From the NCBI GenBank assembly GCA_000508305.1, contig CP006977.1:1458621-1522620 (forward strand): a stretch of DNA of 64,000 nt, given 5' to 3'. Below are positions 40,163 through 48,457 of this stretch, in pieces. The notes beneath the pieces were generated by a model. The model worked only from the letters and a program-made list of their open reading frames with translations, was not told the DNA's origin and did not search any database. Position 1 is the stretch's first letter; the number at the start of each line of letters is the position of its first letter. The translations under genes were made by a program, and so were the position numbers. The DNA comes from Sulfolobus acidocaldarius SUSAZ. GTDB lineage: Archaea; Thermoproteota; Thermoprotei_A; Sulfolobales; Sulfolobaceae.

Positions 40163-40573
40163 TTAGATTTTGAAATCTCTTACATGCTTAACCCATTGCA
40201 AACTTCTAACCTTCCTCAACAGCTTCTCATCTGCAGTATATACCTCTTCGCCAAGAGTTTTACCTAGGGTTATATAGGCAGAGTCATAAATCGTTATACC
40301 GTACTTCATTGAGAAGGTTACAATTTCCTCTATATCGGAAAAGCTGTAGTAGGTTATTTGAAAATCATCTAAAATCCTTGAAATCGTGACTAGTTCCTCT
40401 TCTCCTAAACTATACGTGTATTTCAGCCCATTAATTACTTCAAAGGGTAAAATACAAGGCGCTTTAAGGTCTACTAGACCTTCAGAGTATGCTCTCTTAA
40501 GCCTATTTGCATCATCGCTATACTCCTCTTTAGCATACCATTTTATGACAACTGAAGCATCTACAATTGCCAA
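40163..40573 (-). CDS. vapC: PIN-domain ribonuclease toxin (VapC), second pair
   Basis: This is a 136-residue PIN-domain protein with the acidic set D5 (AIVDASVV), E45 (PFEVINGL), D97 (TIYDSAYI) and D115 (YTADEKLL). The start overlaps the end of the antitoxin gene by 13 nt. It differs clearly from the VapC at 8599, so this is an independent toxin. RNA target unknown. Confidence 0.88.
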   Translation of the reverse strand: MAIVDASVVIKWYAKEEYSDDANRLKRAYSEGLVDLKAPCILPFEVINGLKYTYSLGEEELVTISRILDDFQITYYSFSDIEEIVTFSMKYGITIYDSAYITLGKTLGEEVYTADEKLLRKVRSLQWVKHVRDFKI

Positions 40574-40830
40574 TTCTTATCTCTCCATTCCCTTATTTTT
40601 TCTTCAGACTTCTCTCCACTTAAATATGCGGAAAATTCCTCTGCTTTAATAGAAGCCCTTTTTATTCTATCACTGTCTTTTTTCCTAAAATTCCTCTTTC
40701 TTTTTTTGTTCTCTTCCTCTATTACACTAATTATACTTCTCCTTATAACTTCGCTCCAATTTATATAGCTTAATTCGTCCATTTTCTCTTTTAGCTCGTC
40801 GTCAATCCTAACTGTTATTATAGGCATCAT
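40561..40830 (-). CDS. vapB: Ribbon-helix-helix antitoxin (VapB)
   Basis: This 89-residue protein has an N-terminal ribbon-helix-helix domain (PIITVRIDDELKEKMDEL, then a SEVIRRSI helix), a very basic linker (KKRKRNFRKKD) and an acidic toxin-binding tail. It pairs with the PIN toxin downstream through a 13-nt overlap. The DNA-binding fold differs from the AbrB type of the other vapB in this window. Either ATG of the ATGATG start is possible. Confidence 0.85.
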   Translation of the reverse strand: MMPIITVRIDDELKEKMDELSYINWSEVIRRSIISVIEEENKKRKRNFRKKDSDRIKRASIKAEEFSAYLSGEKSEEKIREWRDKNWQL

Positions 40831-41178: not shown

Positions 41179-42096
41179 ATGGGGAAAAATATGGGAAAAG
41201 TAGCCATTGTAACTGGTGGGGCAAGAGGTATAGGAGCGTCTATAAGCTATACACTGGGTAAGAGAGGCTATTCTGTGGTCATAGCTGATGTTGATGAGCA
41301 AGCTGGTTCTTACAGAGTTGAGCAGTTCCGCAAGGAGAATATAGATTCACTCTTTATGAAAACTGACGTATCATCGGAAAGTGATGTGAAAAATCTCATG
41401 GATGAATCTTACAGAAAATACGGTAGGATAGATGTGTTAATCAACAATGCAGGGATTGGATTTAGTGGGAGAAGTATCGAGGAGCAGACACTTGAGGAAT
41501 GGAGAAAAATAATTGACACTAACCTGACAGGCACCTGGTTATGTTCAAAATATGTTATAAATTACATGAAGAGAAATAAGGAAACTGGAGGGGTAATTAT
41601 AAACATAGCGTCAACTAGAGCACTGCAATCCGAACCAAATACCGAGCCTTATTCTGCATCCAAGGGTGGAATTGTAGCCCTAACCCACTCTCTAGCTGTA
41701 AGTCTCAGCAAGTATAATATAAGGGTTATAGCTATTAGCCCTGGATGGATAGACACTAGTAGTTGGCAGTATCCTCCAAAGCAGAGCAGGTTAACTAACC
41801 TAGACCACAGACAGCATCTCACCAGAAGGGTTGGGAGACCTGAGGACATATCTTCAATAGTCTCGTTTTTGGTTTCCGAGGAAGCCTCATGGATATCTGG
41901 TGTAAATTTCGTAATAGACGGTGGGATGACTGTCAAAATGATTTACTTGGACGAGAACGTGATCAGAGATTCGCTATCAATTTTACTTGACGACGAAAAT
42001 TTATCAGGCTTATTCATGAACCTTGTGGAAAAGGCTAAATCAGATAAGGATTTTGTAAGGAGGTTACTAAACAATCTTGTATCTGATAAGGGTTGA
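41179..42096 (+). CDS. Short-chain dehydrogenase/reductase with C-terminal extension
   Basis: This is a 305-residue NAD(P)-dependent oxidoreductase. The cofactor motif is TGGARGIG (12-19), followed by NNAG, then S and YSASK as the catalytic residues, and the SPGWIDT and GGMTV segments. The classical SDR part ends near residue 252, and about 50 charged residues follow (LDENVIRDSL onward), which is unusual. They may mediate oligomerisation or binding of a partner. Asp38-like residues after beta-2 (VIADVDEQ) suggest NAD preference. Substrate unknown. Confidence 0.88.
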   Translation: MGKNMGKVAIVTGGARGIGASISYTLGKRGYSVVIADVDEQAGSYRVEQFRKENIDSLFMKTDVSSESDVKNLMDESYRKYGRIDVLINNAGIGFSGRSIEEQTLEEWRKIIDTNLTGTWLCSKYVINYMKRNKETGGVIINIASTRALQSEPNTEPYSASKGGIVALTHSLAVSLSKYNIRVIAISPGWIDTSSWQYPPKQSRLTNLDHRQHLTRRVGRPEDISSIVSFLVSEEASWISGVNFVIDGGMTVKMIYLDENVIRDSLSILLDDENLSGLFMNLVEKAKSDKDFVRRLLNNLVSDKG

Positions 42097-42343
42097 GACA
42101 TTTGCTGATGATCCATTGACTAGTACCCAAGGAATTTTCGTAATAAAATTTGATCTCAAACTCATTTAACGATTTAAGGCTTAAACTACTAAATGAGAAC
42201 GAGATTGGGCACCATTATCCTCAAGTTTAAAAACAAATTATATTTTAGACTAAACCCATCAATTTTCCTAAGTATGATTGATGGAACTACTCCTTTTGAG
42301 TCTCCCTTAAGCTCATCCGTTCTCTCCCATCCTTATTATTCAT

Positions 42344-42604
42344 TCATCTCTTGAGCTTATTTTCTATTTCCAAATAGCTCTCTATCATCTCAAGCTCTCT
42401 CCTACCACCATCTGTAAGCGAATATCCCTCCTTGTTCACCGTAATCAAGCCTAATTTTTCCATATTTGATATATATTTGGAGAATACATCATAGTTTAAT
42501 CCCACTAAATACATCAAATGAGTCTTTTTCACTTCAATTTCACTGTCCATAATTTTTTTAAGTATTGTGTAAATTATCTCAATTTTCCTCCTATGCTTAG
42601 ACAT
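42344..42604 (-). CDS. Winged-helix regulator, paralogue of the one at 46563
   Basis: This is about 86 residues from the ATG at 42604 (MSKHRRK). It is an HTH_45-like archaeal winged helix with KKTHLMYLVGLNYDVFSKYI as the helix-turn-helix and a short wing (VNKEGYSLT). It is clearly similar to the protein at 46563 (KTKLLYVTNLSSRPFYKYM). The two genes bracket the filament-like locus, which they may control. Convergent with the SDR gene. Confidence 0.8.
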   Translation of the reverse strand: MSKHRRKIEIIYTILKKIMDSEIEVKKTHLMYLVGLNYDVFSKYISNMEKLGLITVNKEGYSLTDGGRRELEMIESYLEIENKLKR

Positions 42605-43172
42605 TTTGATCATCAATGGTATTATGATTTTTACAAATTAAGTTTTTTGTGTAACTTTTATAAATAACACTTATAATTAAGGCAAATACTCTACTTCTAA
42701 AACTGAAATGAACCATCTTTCAACTGAGTAAGTTCTCTAAATTTATAAACAGTCATTACTAGTATTTGTATATCAGATAGGAATAACTTTTGAATATTTA
42801 TTTTGAAACTACTTCAAACTAGGAAGCTGAGTTTTATATACCTCTATGAAAATCAGCCTTGTCCATTTCATTAAGTTAAAATATTAAGACAAAATGTAGA
42901 GAGCTAGTTACCTTTATTGTTAAAATCTTTACAACAGTCCAGTTTAACAGAGGTTCATCAATTATTTGTACTTGATGACGGAAATTATCATTCATAACTA
43001 CACTAAAATTAATTTCGTAATATCCATTTTCATATATATCTTTGTTTATGTGGAGGTATATTTTAATCCAATTATAGTAATATATTTAGAATCGACCAAA
43101 AATATATGATATTTCAATTTTTTGTACTTATCTATTTAAATATGTAAAAAACAATAATAGGTTTGAACAAAA
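42605..43172. other. Long AT-rich upstream region of the filament-like locus
   Basis: About 570 nt with no gene. Frames are short and broken. A TATA-like CTATTTAAATATG (about 43131-43142) lies 30-40 nt before the ATG at 43173. The length suggests room for several regulator sites. Confidence 0.5.
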
Positions 43173-43886
43173 ATGAATCTAAACATTAAAACCGTAGCAA
43201 TGATATCCGTAGCAGCTCTACTATTATCAATGCTAGTATACCAGGCTTTTGTGGCAGGATTTGTAGTGAGCAACTCCGTAACAGGTAGTGTAGTTCGGAT
43301 AAATTCAGAGAACGCTCTTCTTCAAATAGACCCACTGGAATTTTCCTTAATCTCTAACAATGGTGGATTATCTATTCAATTACCAGCTATAGGTCCAGGT
43401 ACAGCAGACTATGCAGCTTTCCTTTACGACTCACATTCTAATGTTGTAGCCAGTTATTCAGCAGCATATCTGTTTGCAATAGTTGAGGTAGAGTTTAACT
43501 ACCCAGGTAATAACAATCAAATGATCAATATAGCAGCGTCCTTAGAACATGTGACTAATAACACTCCTATCCAAATCCTAGTACTGGGAACCCATGGTTC
43601 TACAATGGATCCCATAACCTCATTCCCTAACAATTCAATATCTGTTGATCCTACGAACACTCCAGGAACAGTCATGATAAATGGTCTGCAATTCACAGTT
43701 TTAGGAAGTTACGGCTTGCCATCTTCAGTATCCTCTGCAATAGGCAATACAACTGCATCAATAGGCTCTGGGAATAGTAATGGAGAAGTAGTATATGTGT
43801 TAATATTATTACCATCTTACGGAACTGTACCACCGTCTGGCTCTAGTTTTACAGCTGCACTAAACTTCTACGGATATCAGAGTTAA
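43173..43886 (+). CDS. Secreted filament-like subunit (TasA/archaeal thread-like candidate)
   Basis: This is a 237-residue protein with a cleavable signal peptide: MNLNIK, a hydrophobic core at 8-28, then small residues near AGFVVSNS. The mature part is beta-rich, Ser/Asn/Gly-rich and cysteine-free, with several N-glycosylation sequons. A signal peptidase gene follows 46 nt downstream. That order and size fit TasA/camelysin-type fibre subunits, archaeal bundling pilins and the S. acidocaldarius thread protein, which polymerise by donating an N-terminal beta strand. I infer that role from context, since no signature motif proves it. It lacks a class III (type IV) pilin signal. Confidence 0.6.
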   Translation: MNLNIKTVAMISVAALLLSMLVYQAFVAGFVVSNSVTGSVVRINSENALLQIDPLEFSLISNNGGLSIQLPAIGPGTADYAAFLYDSHSNVVASYSAAYLFAIVEVEFNYPGNNNQMINIAASLEHVTNNTPIQILVLGTHGSTMDPITSFPNNSISVDPTNTPGTVMINGLQFTVLGSYGLPSSVSSAIGNTTASIGSGNSNGEVVYVLILLPSYGTVPPSGSSFTAALNFYGYQS

Positions 43887-43932
43887 ACAGGTGAACAAGA
43901 GGGATATAAATATAAGGTAAAGGTGTTTTTTA

Positions 43933-45039
43933 ATGTCCCCAAATATAATTTTTTCGTTTTATTCATTAAAAGTATTGAAAATCATAGGAAAGGTATTTGC
44001 TCTAATTATTCTTATCTTCTCGATATTTCTTACCTTCACCAATTTAATGGGTAGACCAACTTTTGTAGCAATTACTTACGGTTACAGCATGTTTCCTTAC
44101 CTGAAACCTGGAGATGTTGCCATAACAATTCCTGAACCAGTAGCAGGAAAAATAACTAATGGCTCAGTAGTTGTAATAAAGGATCCAGATTACGGTGTAC
44201 TACCAGGTTACCCACCGTATATAATACATCAGGTAATTAACGTCTTACCAAATGGGTCCTTTGTAACCAAGGGAATCAATGATAACTTCGTGGATCAGAT
44301 CTACATGCCTCCTGTAACAGTTTCCAATATATACGCCAAACTCCTAGTCATAAATAATAATCCTGTGGTAATACCATACTTAGGGGAAATACTCAACAGC
44401 GCCAGGCTCAACTTAATTCCGTCTGTAGGAATGTTGGCGTTATTGGGAATTTCCTTTGCTGTCTTAGACAGGAGGAACAATAAAAGTAAAAAGAGAAGAA
44501 AAATAAACAACAGTGAATATGTCAACCTGAAAATTGTCGTGTTTTTCTTATCTATCTTTGTGTTTTCTGTTTTTGTGATCATGGCTAGCGCTCAGACCTC
44601 TAGCACTACAGTAGTTTACTTGGTGTCCAGAACGCCAGGATATTTATACGGGGGAACACTCCAATCCTCTTCAGTAAATCTAGGTGTACTATTATATAAC
44701 CAAATGAAGTCTTACGTATTTAACGTAACAAACAGACTGGAAATTCCCGAAATAGTTACAGTAAACTTACAGGGAGATGGAAACGAAAGTTACAATGTAA
44801 CTCCTTCACTGTTATTTATCTTGTATCCAGGTCAAGAAAAGAGTATTAACTTAACCGTAGAAGGTGCGGGAAACCAGGGATTACATGAGTTATTGGTGAA
44901 GATATATGTGATACCCACTCTATTTCCCTTAGTGATGAATATGGTAAGCCCAATACTGTCCCTATTTCTATATTCAATACTGAATACCTTTCTTGTGTTA
45001 ACCGTAATATCCTTGTTAATTTCCAGGGTGAGAGTGTGA
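43933..45039 (+). CDS. Archaeal type I signal peptidase with extra exported domain
   Basis: This is a 368-residue membrane protein. After one helix (about 14-36) comes the S26 catalytic domain with Ser52 (GYSMFPYLKPGD), His99 (YIIHQVI) and Asp117/Asp121 (TKGINDNFVD). That is the Ser-His-Asp type of archaeal and ER signal peptidases, SipW-like. A helix, a very basic loop (RRNNKSKKRRK) and another helix (about 200-220) then lead to an extracytoplasmic beta domain of about 110 residues with NLTV and NVT sequons, closed by a final helix. Ordinary archaeal signal peptidases end near residue 170. Its place after a secreted subunit gene suggests a dedicated processing or assembly enzyme. Confidence 0.82.
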   Translation: MSPNIIFSFYSLKVLKIIGKVFALIILIFSIFLTFTNLMGRPTFVAITYGYSMFPYLKPGDVAITIPEPVAGKITNGSVVVIKDPDYGVLPGYPPYIIHQVINVLPNGSFVTKGINDNFVDQIYMPPVTVSNIYAKLLVINNNPVVIPYLGEILNSARLNLIPSVGMLALLGISFAVLDRRNNKSKKRRKINNSEYVNLKIVVFFLSIFVFSVFVIMASAQTSSTTVVYLVSRTPGYLYGGTLQSSSVNLGVLLYNQMKSYVFNVTNRLEIPEIVTVNLQGDGNESYNVTPSLLFILYPGQEKSINLTVEGAGNQGLHELLVKIYVIPTLFPLVMNMVSPILSLFLYSILNTFLVLTVISLLISRVRV

Positions 45040-45449
45040 TAAAAATAGTCCTAATAACTACTGTAATATTACTCATAATTTCATTAACGTATTTAAGCTC
45101 CTTTGTCCCAGCCTTTGATATATCTAATTTCAATAATAATGTTAACATCGTATCCAATTTGGTTTATGCGTCAGTTGTTAAGGTTAATGATATGAATTTT
45201 GTGCAGGTGTTCATTAACACTAGTTATTTACAGTCAATTAGTGAAATTGAAATAATAATACTGGGAAATGTATACCATTTATCTACAATTGGTAAGCCAT
45301 TTAGTAATGGGAGTTCGGTTAACATCATAATCACTCCGCCCATATATAGTTCGAATTTGTTGGAGTTTTACACAAATTCGAATCGTGTAGTGAATATTCA
45401 AGTTATAATATACTACTCACAAGGAGATGTTGGAATATTAAGCTTATAA
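45036..45449 (+). CDS. Small exported protein in the filament-like operon
   Basis: This is a 137-residue protein with an N-terminal hydrophobic signal segment (about 3-22). The remainder is beta-rich and extracytoplasmic (NTSYLQ, NGSSVNI) and free of cysteine. Its GTG start overlaps the signal peptidase stop (GTGTGA), so translation is coupled. It may be a second or capping subunit of the same structure. Not recognised by sequence. The end overlaps the next gene by about 13 nt. Confidence 0.65.
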   Translation: MIKIVLITTVILLIISLTYLSSFVPAFDISNFNNNVNIVSNLVYASVVKVNDMNFVQVFINTSYLQSISEIEIIILGNVYHLSTIGKPFSNGSSVNIIITPPIYSSNLLEFYTNSNRVVNIQVIIYYSQGDVGILSL

Positions 45450-46357
45450 TCGTTTTAAAAATAAGTTTAGTAATAGCGTTATTAGCCTCTGCGTCTGCAC
45501 TAATATACCTGGGAGTTCTCTCTAACTCTACGGTTTATTTTCCCCAGAGAGTTGGAGTAGGTTCCTATCTAGCTGACACTAAATACCAGACAACATTTTA
45601 TATAAACAATTCTATACTTTTTAACAATAAGACTGAGATCAACACGAACAGTATGTTTAGTTCGTTGACAAAAAGTCTTGTAGTTAATGGTTACTTTGAA
45701 ACTACAGCGAACTCGTATACAGGAAATTTCACAGTAAATGAGACGATAGTTACTCCATTATGGTCTAAGCCGTTAGGGACTGTATATAGAGGAAATCTTA
45801 CCTCGCATTTCTTCTCATTCACTCCGAATTTTACTTATATAGAGAACTTATTCTACCAGATAGATAAACAGTTAAGGATTCCTATAAATTACTACTCCAT
45901 ACGTCTAAATGTAAGTGTTAATGCTGTAATCATGTACCCGTCAGGTAACGTTCCCTTAAACTTTAGGGATTCATTAACTATACAGAACGGTACGTATAAT
46001 ATCTCGGTTAATTATAATAATGATTCATTTGCATCAGGTAGTTTTTACAAGGAGATTTCAGTTGAGGAAAAAACGGGCTATAATTACTCGTATTTTTATG
46101 GTGCAGCATTTCTGGTAATTATTGCTCTTTCAATATTGTTTATTAGGTTATCATTAAATATACAGAATGTAATAAATAAGAACTCAATTAGTGGTTCAAA
46201 ACCACCCATGAATGTTTCAGTGATAGAGGTGAACAAGGCTGAAGATTTCTTGAAACTTATTAAACAGTATAACGAGAAGGCTGTAAAATTCGATAATGAT
46301 TACTATATAACTCATGATAACATAGTATATCTTTACCATGGAGAAAGTAAAGTATAA
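45437..46357 (+). CDS. DUF5305-like membrane protein with apparent AUU start
   Basis: The ATG at 45653 would cut off an obvious membrane anchor. The same frame is open back to a TAG near 45350 and contains no ATG, GTG or TTG before 45653. An ATT at 45437, 10 nt after AAGGAG (45421-45426), gives KLIIVLKISLVIALLASASA as anchor and a product of about 306 residues. A large extracytoplasmic domain (SNSTVYFPQRVG, many sequons), a second helix (about 222-244) and a cytoplasmic tail follow. The layout recalls DUF5305 proteins, which I remember as neighbours of SipW-like peptidases in archaea. Probable membrane partner of the filament system. Confidence 0.68.
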   Translation: MKLIIVLKISLVIALLASASALIYLGVLSNSTVYFPQRVGVGSYLADTKYQTTFYINNSILFNNKTEINTNSMFSSLTKSLVVNGYFETTANSYTGNFTVNETIVTPLWSKPLGTVYRGNLTSHFFSFTPNFTYIENLFYQIDKQLRIPINYYSIRLNVSVNAVIMYPSGNVPLNFRDSLTIQNGTYNISVNYNNDSFASGSFYKEISVEEKTGYNYSYFYGAAFLVIIALSILFIRLSLNIQNVINKNSISGSKPPMNVSVIEVNKAEDFLKLIKQYNEKAVKFDNDYYITHDNIVYLYHGESKV

Positions 46358-46562
46358 ATCAAGAGAAAAATTTTTTCTAAATTCTTTTATATTCTATTTG
46401 AATTTAAATCTTTTTCAATCTAACTGTCACAAAAATGAGATAGTATATAAACTATATAATTAGTTAATTAATAGATTGGAGAATCATGTGTCACTAAATT
46501 AAATGTTATACAAAACTTTATTATGGTAGACGACGAGACTATAGGGACAAAGAGATGTCGGT

Positions 46563-46883
46563 ATGCGGAAAAAGAAAAGGAGTTCAATTCAAATAGTTAT
46601 CAGCATATTAGAAGGGTGTAGATCTGGTGTCAGGAAGACAAAGTTGTTGTATGTTACTAATCTGAGTTCTCGTCCATTTTACAAATATATGAAGGTACTG
46701 GAGGAGAGTGGTCTTATCTATTTTGAACCAAGTACCAGAGAGTACATCTTAGCTCCAAAAGGGAGAAACGTGTTAGAAAAATCGAAAAGATACCTAGACT
46801 TGCTAGAACAGTTAGATAAGATTAAACCAGATATTGTTGACCTCTTAGATAGAGTTAAGGAAGATAGAAGTAAGGGGAAATAA
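46563..46883 (+). CDS. Winged-helix regulator, paralogue of the one at 42344
   Basis: This is a 106-residue HTH_45-like winged helix (VRKTKLLYVTNLSSRPFYKY as the helix-turn-helix) with a C-terminal coiled-coil helix (YLDLLEQLDKI) that would dimerise it. Its similarity to the 42344 product, and the way the pair flanks the filament-like operon, point to a local regulatory duo. The next gene starts 6 nt after its stop, so the two form an operon. Confidence 0.8.
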   Translation: MRKKKRSSIQIVISILEGCRSGVRKTKLLYVTNLSSRPFYKYMKVLEESGLIYFEPSTREYILAPKGRNVLEKSKRYLDLLEQLDKIKPDIVDLLDRVKEDRSKGK

Positions 46884-46889
46884 ATAGAG

Positions 46890-47453
46890 ATGATTACTTT
46901 TCAGATAACTGTAGTATTAATTGTATCCTATATGTTAGCGTTATTGTCATATTACTTCTTTAGGCTCTCAATGAAAAAATATATGAATGAAATAGAGAAG
47001 AAAGAAAGTGAAGCGATGATAAAAAGAACTTTAGATTTTCTAATATCCTTGTCTAAACTAATGAGCAATAGTGAGGTTAACAACCTATTGGAGGAGATTT
47101 TAACTTATATAACTAGTCTAAAGGGAAGACAGTGGAAAGAAATATATGAGACCACTATAAAAAGATTGGATCCTATAAAAAGGGAATTAGACGATACAAG
47201 GCAAAAGGTCAACAACATTATAGAGATAGAGAATGCCTCAAAAAGGGCGAAATTGTGTTATACAGCTCTTAATTATTCTATGATTACTTTGATCTTAACA
47301 TTCACAATTTCCATTGTGTTCTACTTAGTCTTTATGAATTACATATATTCTCTCGTATTGCTGGAAATTCTTGAAACAATTATAATATTCTTAGAGATAT
47401 TCTACCTTTACAAGATGTATAAAAAAATAGATATAAATATGTTTATTGAATAG
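46890..47453 (+). CDS. Membrane protein with cytoplasmic coiled coil
   Basis: This is a 187-residue protein. An N-terminal helix (3-25) is followed by a long charged helical region (about 30-125) with coiled-coil character, then two closely packed membrane helices (about 128-150 and 153-175). It is co-transcribed with the winged-helix gene. The shape fits a signalling or scaffold protein. No catalytic motif. I do not recognise the family. Confidence 0.65.
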   Translation: MITFQITVVLIVSYMLALLSYYFFRLSMKKYMNEIEKKESEAMIKRTLDFLISLSKLMSNSEVNNLLEEILTYITSLKGRQWKEIYETTIKRLDPIKRELDDTRQKVNNIIEIENASKRAKLCYTALNYSMITLILTFTISIVFYLVFMNYIYSLVLLEILETIIIFLEIFYLYKMYKKIDINMFIE

Positions 47454-47575
47454 AGCATCTTTCAACAAAATTACTTTTAAACCCTAACAAATATTTTTGA
47501 AGACATACTAGAACTCAATTACGTTGAGAATAACTTTAAATATTTTTAGGGTATCCCAAATAATAGGAGTAAAAA

Positions 47576-48457
47576 ATGTTAAGCCTAAGTACGTTGTTAA
47601 ACCCACCAGATAATCTTTCCGTTGGAGAAATAATACTCATATCATTGATACTAGGTATGCTACATGGTATCACGCCAGATGAACATACATGGCCTATAAC
47701 CTTTAGTTACGCTATAGGTAAATACAGCACTAAGGGAGGAATGAAGGCAGGTTTTCTCTTCTCATTAGGCTTTACGATTCAGAGGGCATTTTTAACTACT
47801 ATAGGATTCCTAGGGTTAGCAGCAATATATAATCAATACAATTTAGACGGTCCAGTATATGCCATTGTGGGGATTGTTATGGCTATAGCAGGTTCATATA
47901 TATTGAAGGGAAAATATTTACACTTACCCATTGACGCTCTATTTAGCAGTAAGCAACACACTGAAGAAGTAGGGAAAGTAAATGATGTACCACTTAAGAT
48001 GACAATTGTGCACGGTTTAATTGCGGGCTTCGGATTCGGCGCATATGCAACTATAATCACCTTTGTACTAGCTCCACAGCTGCCTTCAGTAATCTATGCT
48101 CCATTACCCGGCATGTTCTTTGGTATAGGTACAATGATGATGCAGATAATATTTGGTATGATATTCGGTAGTATATTACGAGTAAGGAAAATGACTAAAG
48201 AGCAGATAACATTTATTGCTAGGAAAAGTGCCGGAAGAGTCCTGTATTATGGTGGCCTAGTATTTCTTATAGTCGGTCTCCTAATAATTGCTTTACCTGC
48301 TATTGATAATTTTGCTATATCCACAGGCAATCCGATACCTAACCTTGATGCGATAAATATAGGATTTTTACTAGTGATGTCCGTTGTGGGAGTAATAGGA
48401 ATTAGTAGTATCCTGTATGGGTTCAAAGAAGCTAAGAGATTAACTAAACATATGTAA
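47576..48457 (+). CDS. NiCoT/NicO-like membrane transporter
   Basis: This is a 293-residue protein with seven or eight helices. The second helix holds HGITPDEHTWP (H30, D35, E36, H37), which resembles the HX4DH metal signature of nickel/cobalt transporters. A second histidine segment (TIVHGLIAGFGFGAYAT) matches the later NicO-type motif. It should move Ni, Co or a similar metal, or it may be a related sulfite/urease-accessory (UreH-like) exporter. A TATA-like TTTAAATA lies about 35 nt upstream. Monocistronic. Confidence 0.7.
   Translation: MLSLSTLLNPPDNLSVGEIILISLILGMLHGITPDEHTWPITFSYAIGKYSTKGGMKAGFLFSLGFTIQRAFLTTIGFLGLAAIYNQYNLDGPVYAIVGIVMAIAGSYILKGKYLHLPIDALFSSKQHTEEVGKVNDVPLKMTIVHGLIAGFGFGAYATIITFVLAPQLPSVIYAPLPGMFFGIGTMMMQIIFGMIFGSILRVRKMTKEQITFIARKSAGRVLYYGGLVFLIVGLLIIALPAIDNFAISTGNPIPNLDAINIGFLLVMSVVGVIGISSILYGFKEAKRLTKHM

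Follow-up and report, generated by a model that had tools for sequence, protein, structure and literature searches.

The window analysed here, a 64,000-nucleotide stretch (positions 1,458,621-1,522,620) of the single-contig, 2.06 Mb genome of Sulfolobus acidocaldarius SUSAZ, contains a set of linked genes that very probably serves the export of particular proteins and probably builds a surface filament from them. On the forward strand, to which coordinates refer unless stated otherwise, the module consists of a putative filament subunit (237 amino acids, 43173..43886), an extended signal peptidase (43933..45039), a small exported protein (137 amino acids, 45036..45449), a DUF5305 membrane protein (45437..46357), an Sso10a-type winged-helix protein (46563..46883) and a coiled-coil membrane protein (187 amino acids, 46890..47453). 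A further winged-helix gene (42344..42616) is divergent, on the reverse strand. Every gene that a preliminary description of this DNA had named was found where that description placed it. About 35 nucleotides 5' of the subunit gene lies a TATA-like sequence, TTTAAATA (43135..43142), which may be its promoter element, and the 5' region of the gene is kept in S. acidocaldarius and in L045. The flanking genes at 41179 and 47576 are shared with S. acidocaldarius only, and we therefore place the edges of the module there.

The S. acidocaldarius genome used for comparison (G032) is identified as such because it encodes a protein identical to PDB entry 7pnb, the thread-filament subunit Saci_0406. It carries the same locus, with identities of 97% for the subunit, 95% for the peptidase, 94% for the DUF5305 protein and 88% for the small exported protein. 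The ratio of nonsynonymous to synonymous substitution rates extends from 0.06 in the subunit to 0.21 in 42344, with all genes inside this range, and purifying selection acts on each gene of the locus. Subunit homologues occur in 9 of 31 Sulfolobaceae genomes, S. acidocaldarius included, and eight of these nine also encode a high-scoring extended peptidase. At the intact loci the small protein, the DUF5305 protein, one or more winged-helix genes and the coiled-coil protein are all linked to the subunit, in at least three arrangements; in three Metallosphaera-group genomes (G078 among them) the subunit lies on the strand opposite to the peptidase and the set extends over some 7.5-8.5 kb. Co-occurrence of the module genes among the 31 genomes has a hypergeometric p of 1e-6 to 5e-8, in a calculation that ignores phylogeny, and physical linkage persists in all nine despite changes of gene order; the gene set is more than a chance association.

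Decaying versions of the locus were also encountered. In G155 (L044 5650-10744) two transposase-like genes replace the peptidase and the small protein, the DUF5305 gene is fragmented and the subunit gene is open: the machinery has been lost naturally and the subunit kept. A decayed second copy of the DUF5305 and coiled-coil genes, with two stops, lies far from the intact locus in another genome (G042:C1:2609869-2611241), and G175 retains a coiled-coil remnant.

By sequence the 43933 product belongs to the archaeal, or SipW-type, class of type I signal peptidases. It scores 38.9 bits against TIGR02228 (expectation value E 7e-10; cut-off 51.85), a cut-off exceeded by the best stretch in four of the seven other intact homologues and, in a fifth, by that stretch and its neighbours together, and its Ser52, His99 and Asp121 are invariant in eight relatives. 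The preliminary description had read this protein as a signal peptidase with an extra exported domain, and such a domain does lie between the transmembrane segments, placed by alignment at approximately residues 220-318 (44590..44886); homologues give weak immunoglobulin-like or choice-of-anchor-like matches to hidden Markov models here. The domain shares 20-25% identity with its counterparts in three more Sulfolobaceae (G084, G119 and G072), whose peptidases belong to a sister module with a different subunit of 172-187 amino acids. SUSAZ has two TIGR02228 genes, this one and a 137-amino-acid housekeeping enzyme, and the short housekeeping peptidase is the only one in three genomes checked that are without the module (G022, G059 and G131) and in G155. 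In two distant Thermoproteota, the peptidase segment past the second transmembrane segment reads SYFSDSEWAEATFTAGQW and SYFVDVEATRVTTEAATW, resembling the N-terminus of a SipW-type substrate. The extra domain opens with such a motif after the second transmembrane segment at L116 3029-4024 and L118 6899-7924, as if a subunit-like domain had been fused to the enzyme; the extra domain may be a fused relative of a subunit.

The small exported protein begins inside the final codons of the peptidase gene, and the 4-bp GTGA overlap agrees with the translational coupling proposed for the pair. Besides its junction it has no other recognisable domain. Its alignment with the subunit is restricted to 34 columns, which cover the signal peptide and the junction (hhalign E 6e-5), and within them both proteins contain the motif [GA]F-x-[VI]-S-N: in the subunit it reads GFVVSN (43257..43274), lies where the signal peptide is predicted to end and has G29 and F30 invariant, and in the small protein it reads AFDISN (45111..45128). 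The junction DNA pattern has 24 matches genome-wide and a reversed control pattern 11; only 2 of the 24 come after a signal-peptide-like segment, and these are the subunit and the small exported protein, both at the locus. This shared junction is the best sequence evidence that a single enzyme processes the two, and suggests that both would be cleaved there. The invariant Phe30 of the subunit resembles TasA, which has an aromatic residue just after or near the site cut by SipW (PMC10269814).

By prediction the DUF5305 protein has an N-terminal transmembrane segment, an exported domain with many N-glycosylation sequons, a second transmembrane segment and a cytoplasmic tail. Its start is most plausibly an ATT codon at 45437, about 10 nucleotides past an AAGGAG motif; the frame is open, encodes the N-terminal transmembrane segment and is conserved in S. 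acidocaldarius. The ATG at 45653, the start given by the open-reading-frame tool, was rejected because this segment would be lost. The protein itself scores 9.9 bits against PF17231, below the cut-off of 29, and homologues 27-28% identical to it and of the same topology reach 29.8 and 37.2 bits, the best with E 5e-9, such that the product is by homology a DUF5305 protein. The function of this family is undescribed, and no mention of it was found in the literature searched. Both winged-helix proteins match HTH_45 (PF14947; E 5e-17 for 42344 and 1e-16 for 46563) and are of the Sso10a type; 46563 passes the Sso10a cut-off of NF053610 (72.7 bits, cut-off 60) and 42344, with 58.4 bits, is short by 1.6 bits. 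Paralogues of 42344 are present at all nine loci, and we propose that this locus-bound pair has a regulatory role, probably in controlling expression. The coiled-coil membrane protein is a linked neighbour of the module in each of the nine genomes; no family could be assigned to it. A relative at a sister locus (L111 3634-4206) weakly matches SLATT_1 (20.6 bits, cut-off 41).

A related gene set appears to be spread much more widely. DUF5305 is present in 38 of the 300 Thermoproteota genomes searched, and we took 18 regions with a DUF5305 gene or an extended peptidase and scored the 16 DUF5305 genes in them. A peptidase profile match lies within 3 kb in 12 of the 16 cases (two of these peptidases have merely 168-175 amino acids), and two further loci have a protein of 396-401 amino acids in the peptidase position. 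Of the 16, 13 have secreted proteins close by on the same strand, and nine have a neighbouring winged-helix gene from the same family. Several secreted neighbours have N-termini of the form AMWSETL..V..TG or AVFSDTE..TAGTL, and such neighbours weakly match AbpX (9sj2, E 0.003), the SipW-dependent signal model TIGR04088 (E 0.007) and TasA (E 0.02). Since the module recurs with differing subunits, its machinery half is old and shared, and its subunit half varies from lineage to lineage. One 12-kb locus contains three paralogous putative subunits (L112 1670-2194, 5002-5529 and 11235-11786), and long proline runs occur in loops of putative subunits from different families and genera (L046 6684-7430, L111 6943-7503, L112 11235-11786); Saci_0406 likewise has a proline-rich C-terminal tail.

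These observations argue for a widespread archaeal module of winged helix, subunit, signal peptidase and DUF5305 protein, of which the SUSAZ locus would be the Sulfolobaceae version. The second, module-specific peptidase, the conserved linkage, the junction limited to two exported proteins and the same machinery around AbpX- and SipW-type subunits of other archaea all favour the proposal that the locus is dedicated to secretion, and we consider this very probable. The preliminary description had also compared the locus with the SipW-TasA layout. The analogy fits the machinery, because subunit, peptidase and DUF5305 recur elsewhere in Thermoproteota with SipW- or AbpX-like N-termini, and the locus is best classed as a variation on the SipW-TasA/AbpX theme, having a subunit of its own and additional components. 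As in tapA-sipW-tasA of Bacillus subtilis, a dedicated archaeal-type signal peptidase lies beside a main beta-rich exported substrate and a minor exported protein, with an aromatic residue directly after the predicted cleavage site. This second peptidase adjoins its exported neighbours in a conserved manner, and the junction motif points to them as its substrates. The locus differs from tapA-sipW-tasA in the extra exported domain of the peptidase and in the added DUF5305, winged-helix and coiled-coil membrane proteins. By sequence the subunit half of the analogy did not hold, as the subunit is not homologous and profile searches matched it neither to the TasA/camelysin family nor to TIGR04088. 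The accompanying suggestion that the accessory proteins are undescribed stands for the roles of the DUF5305, small exported and coiled-coil proteins, and fails for DUF5305 and Sso10a/HTH_45 as families, which are named.

The subunit was expected to be secreted, cysteine-free and beta-rich, and this is what its sequence and models indicate: it has no cysteine, a single N-terminal hydrophobic segment (residues 13-31), three N-glycosylation sequons and a predicted fold that is nearly all-beta past the signal helix. AlphaFold2 was given the same nine sequences for the precursor (pLDDT 60.0, pTM 0.64) and the mature chain (pLDDT 62.2, pTM 0.70), and the two models are for that reason not independent. 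Both show a beta head preceded by a largely unstructured stretch of ~37 residues at the mature N-terminus; such a disordered tail in the monomer is as expected for a donor-strand subunit, though it is no proof. In a Foldseek search of 350,542 PDB chains, the low-confidence mature model ranks the thread subunit 7pnb first (E 0.02, probability 0.72, 192 columns) and the pilus major subunit CfaB third; the precursor model, likewise of low confidence, ranks 7pnb 18th (E 0.13, root-mean-square deviation 5.0 over 127 columns). Neither TasA nor AbpA/AbpX is among the 50 best matches listed. We regard the fold signal toward 7pnb as suggestive only.

Several results weigh against a filament subunit. 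In a PDB profile search no filament protein of solved structure resembles it in sequence, the family is limited to nine genomes and lacks the SipW-cognate signature TIGR04088, and comparison with the sister-module subunits gives background scores, with no detectable kinship. Both models are of low confidence, neither has a PDB match at E 0.001, and the alignment of the mature model to 7pnb reaches a template-modelling score of just 0.32-0.35 with a root-mean-square deviation of 12.7. Because the 7pnb match stands at E 0.02 and a template-modelling score of about 0.33, from low-confidence models, filament formation remains inferred. More broadly, the subunit has no match beyond the nine Sulfolobaceae in PDB, Pfam, NCBIfam, IMG/VR or the 398 genomes sampled from the phylum Thermoproteota, a search of GTDB contigs with it gave no match (with the peptidase, Metallosphaera javensis and two distant bacterial peptidase fragments), and its model finds nothing at E 0.001 in BFVD. 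Sulfolobicin was considered for the locus, and a literature search brought nothing useful.

The locus could instead secrete a non-filamentous surface protein, such as an S-layer-associated coat protein, a secreted adhesin or a hydrolase, with the peptidase and DUF5305 protein serving export and anchoring only. Beta-sandwich enzymes and lectins follow shortly after 7pnb among the fold matches, a subunit as strongly conserved as this one (97% in S. acidocaldarius) could equally be a coat protein, and the donor-strand filament is after all inferred from the company of the machinery and the weak fold signal. However, the same machinery elsewhere accompanies proteins with N-termini of the AbpX/TasA type, which are fibre formers, and the subunit matches no enzyme family; we consider this alternative unlikely. 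A type IV pilin cleaved by PibD and assembled by the general pilus machinery would account for the N-terminal hydrophobic helix (residues 5-28 of the model) followed by a beta head. The adjoining type I peptidase with its module-specific junction motif speaks against such a pilin, as does a Pfam scan of nine proteins (41179-48454) that revealed no pilus ATPase or platform protein, and no type IV pilin is among the 50 best fold matches, so that this explanation is very improbable.

The thread filament itself deserves separate consideration. Saci_0406 and Saci_0405 share with the locus a signal peptide, a tail, a beta head and a second exported gene alongside, and no chaperone or usher has been recognised in the thread cluster; how archaeal donor-strand fibres are assembled is an open question (PMC9715654). 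The locus might therefore be the missing assembly machinery of the thread, given that both systems occur in S. acidocaldarius and in SUSAZ (whose thread gene, 84% identical to Saci_0406, is located at 352 kb) and that the locus subunit, as modelled, is similar to that of the thread. However, a Saci_0406 homologue is found in just three of the nine module genomes, six genomes have a thread gene without the locus subunit, and the thread cluster contains no homologue of the module genes, including no dedicated peptidase or DUF5305. As the distributions differ and the cluster lacks module homologues, the two are separate systems, and a role in thread assembly is very unlikely. The subunits also differ in sequence: BLASTP gives E 0.05 and hhalign a probability of 0.9%, and the Asp24 and YYY motif that follow cleavage in the thread protein are absent. 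As for the bundling pili AbpA/AbpX of Pyrobaculum, AbpX-like subunits adjoin the same peptidase, DUF5305 and winged-helix set in other Thermoproteota, and the SUSAZ subunit lacks the WSETL..TG N-terminus, has no PDB profile match to AbpA/AbpX and gives background scores in hhalign to two AbpX-like groups. None of the tests that were passed places the subunit in the TasA, AbpA or thread families.

We conclude that the locus is probably a self-contained unit for the export and assembly of a heat-stable surface filament, and by analogy and from the models we lean toward a filament built by donor-strand assembly. Hypothetically, the 43173 product would be exported by the Sec pathway, and the adjoining dedicated peptidase would then cleave it at its GF.VSN junction. 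The freed N-terminal tail of one subunit would complete the beta-sandwich of the next. The 45036 protein would probably be processed alongside it and act as a minor subunit at the beginning or end of the fibre, a role like that of TapA or Saci_0405. At the membrane, subunits are probably held or guided by two further parts, the additional exported domain of the peptidase and the DUF5305 protein with its many sequons. The gene set, its linkage and conservation, the peptidase family and catalytic residues, the common junction motif and the purifying selection are observed; cleavage by this peptidase, polymerisation, donor-strand exchange and the accessory roles belong to the proposal.

S. acidocaldarius, a model for archaeal cell surfaces, has been described with four filaments (PMC11607397). 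A filament from this locus, if real, would be a fifth surface structure, and it is directly testable because the locus lies in the genome of this genetically tractable species. DUF5305, which throughout Thermoproteota is found in linkage with signal peptidases and with TasA/AbpX-like subunits, becomes a concrete candidate for assembly machinery. More tentatively, DUF5305 and the peptidase with its exported domain might constitute a membrane platform of general use to archaea in building donor-strand filaments, a counterpart of the chaperone-usher system onto which unrelated subunits (AbpX/TasA-like, thread-like or those of the sister modules) have been swapped, the fifth S. acidocaldarius filament being one product; we hold this to be possible and rather doubtful.

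Outside the module, the window contains a PIN-domain protein (40163-40830, reverse strand; PF01850, E 9e-10) whose gene overlaps a small gene for 89 amino acids, in the manner of a VapBC-like pair.

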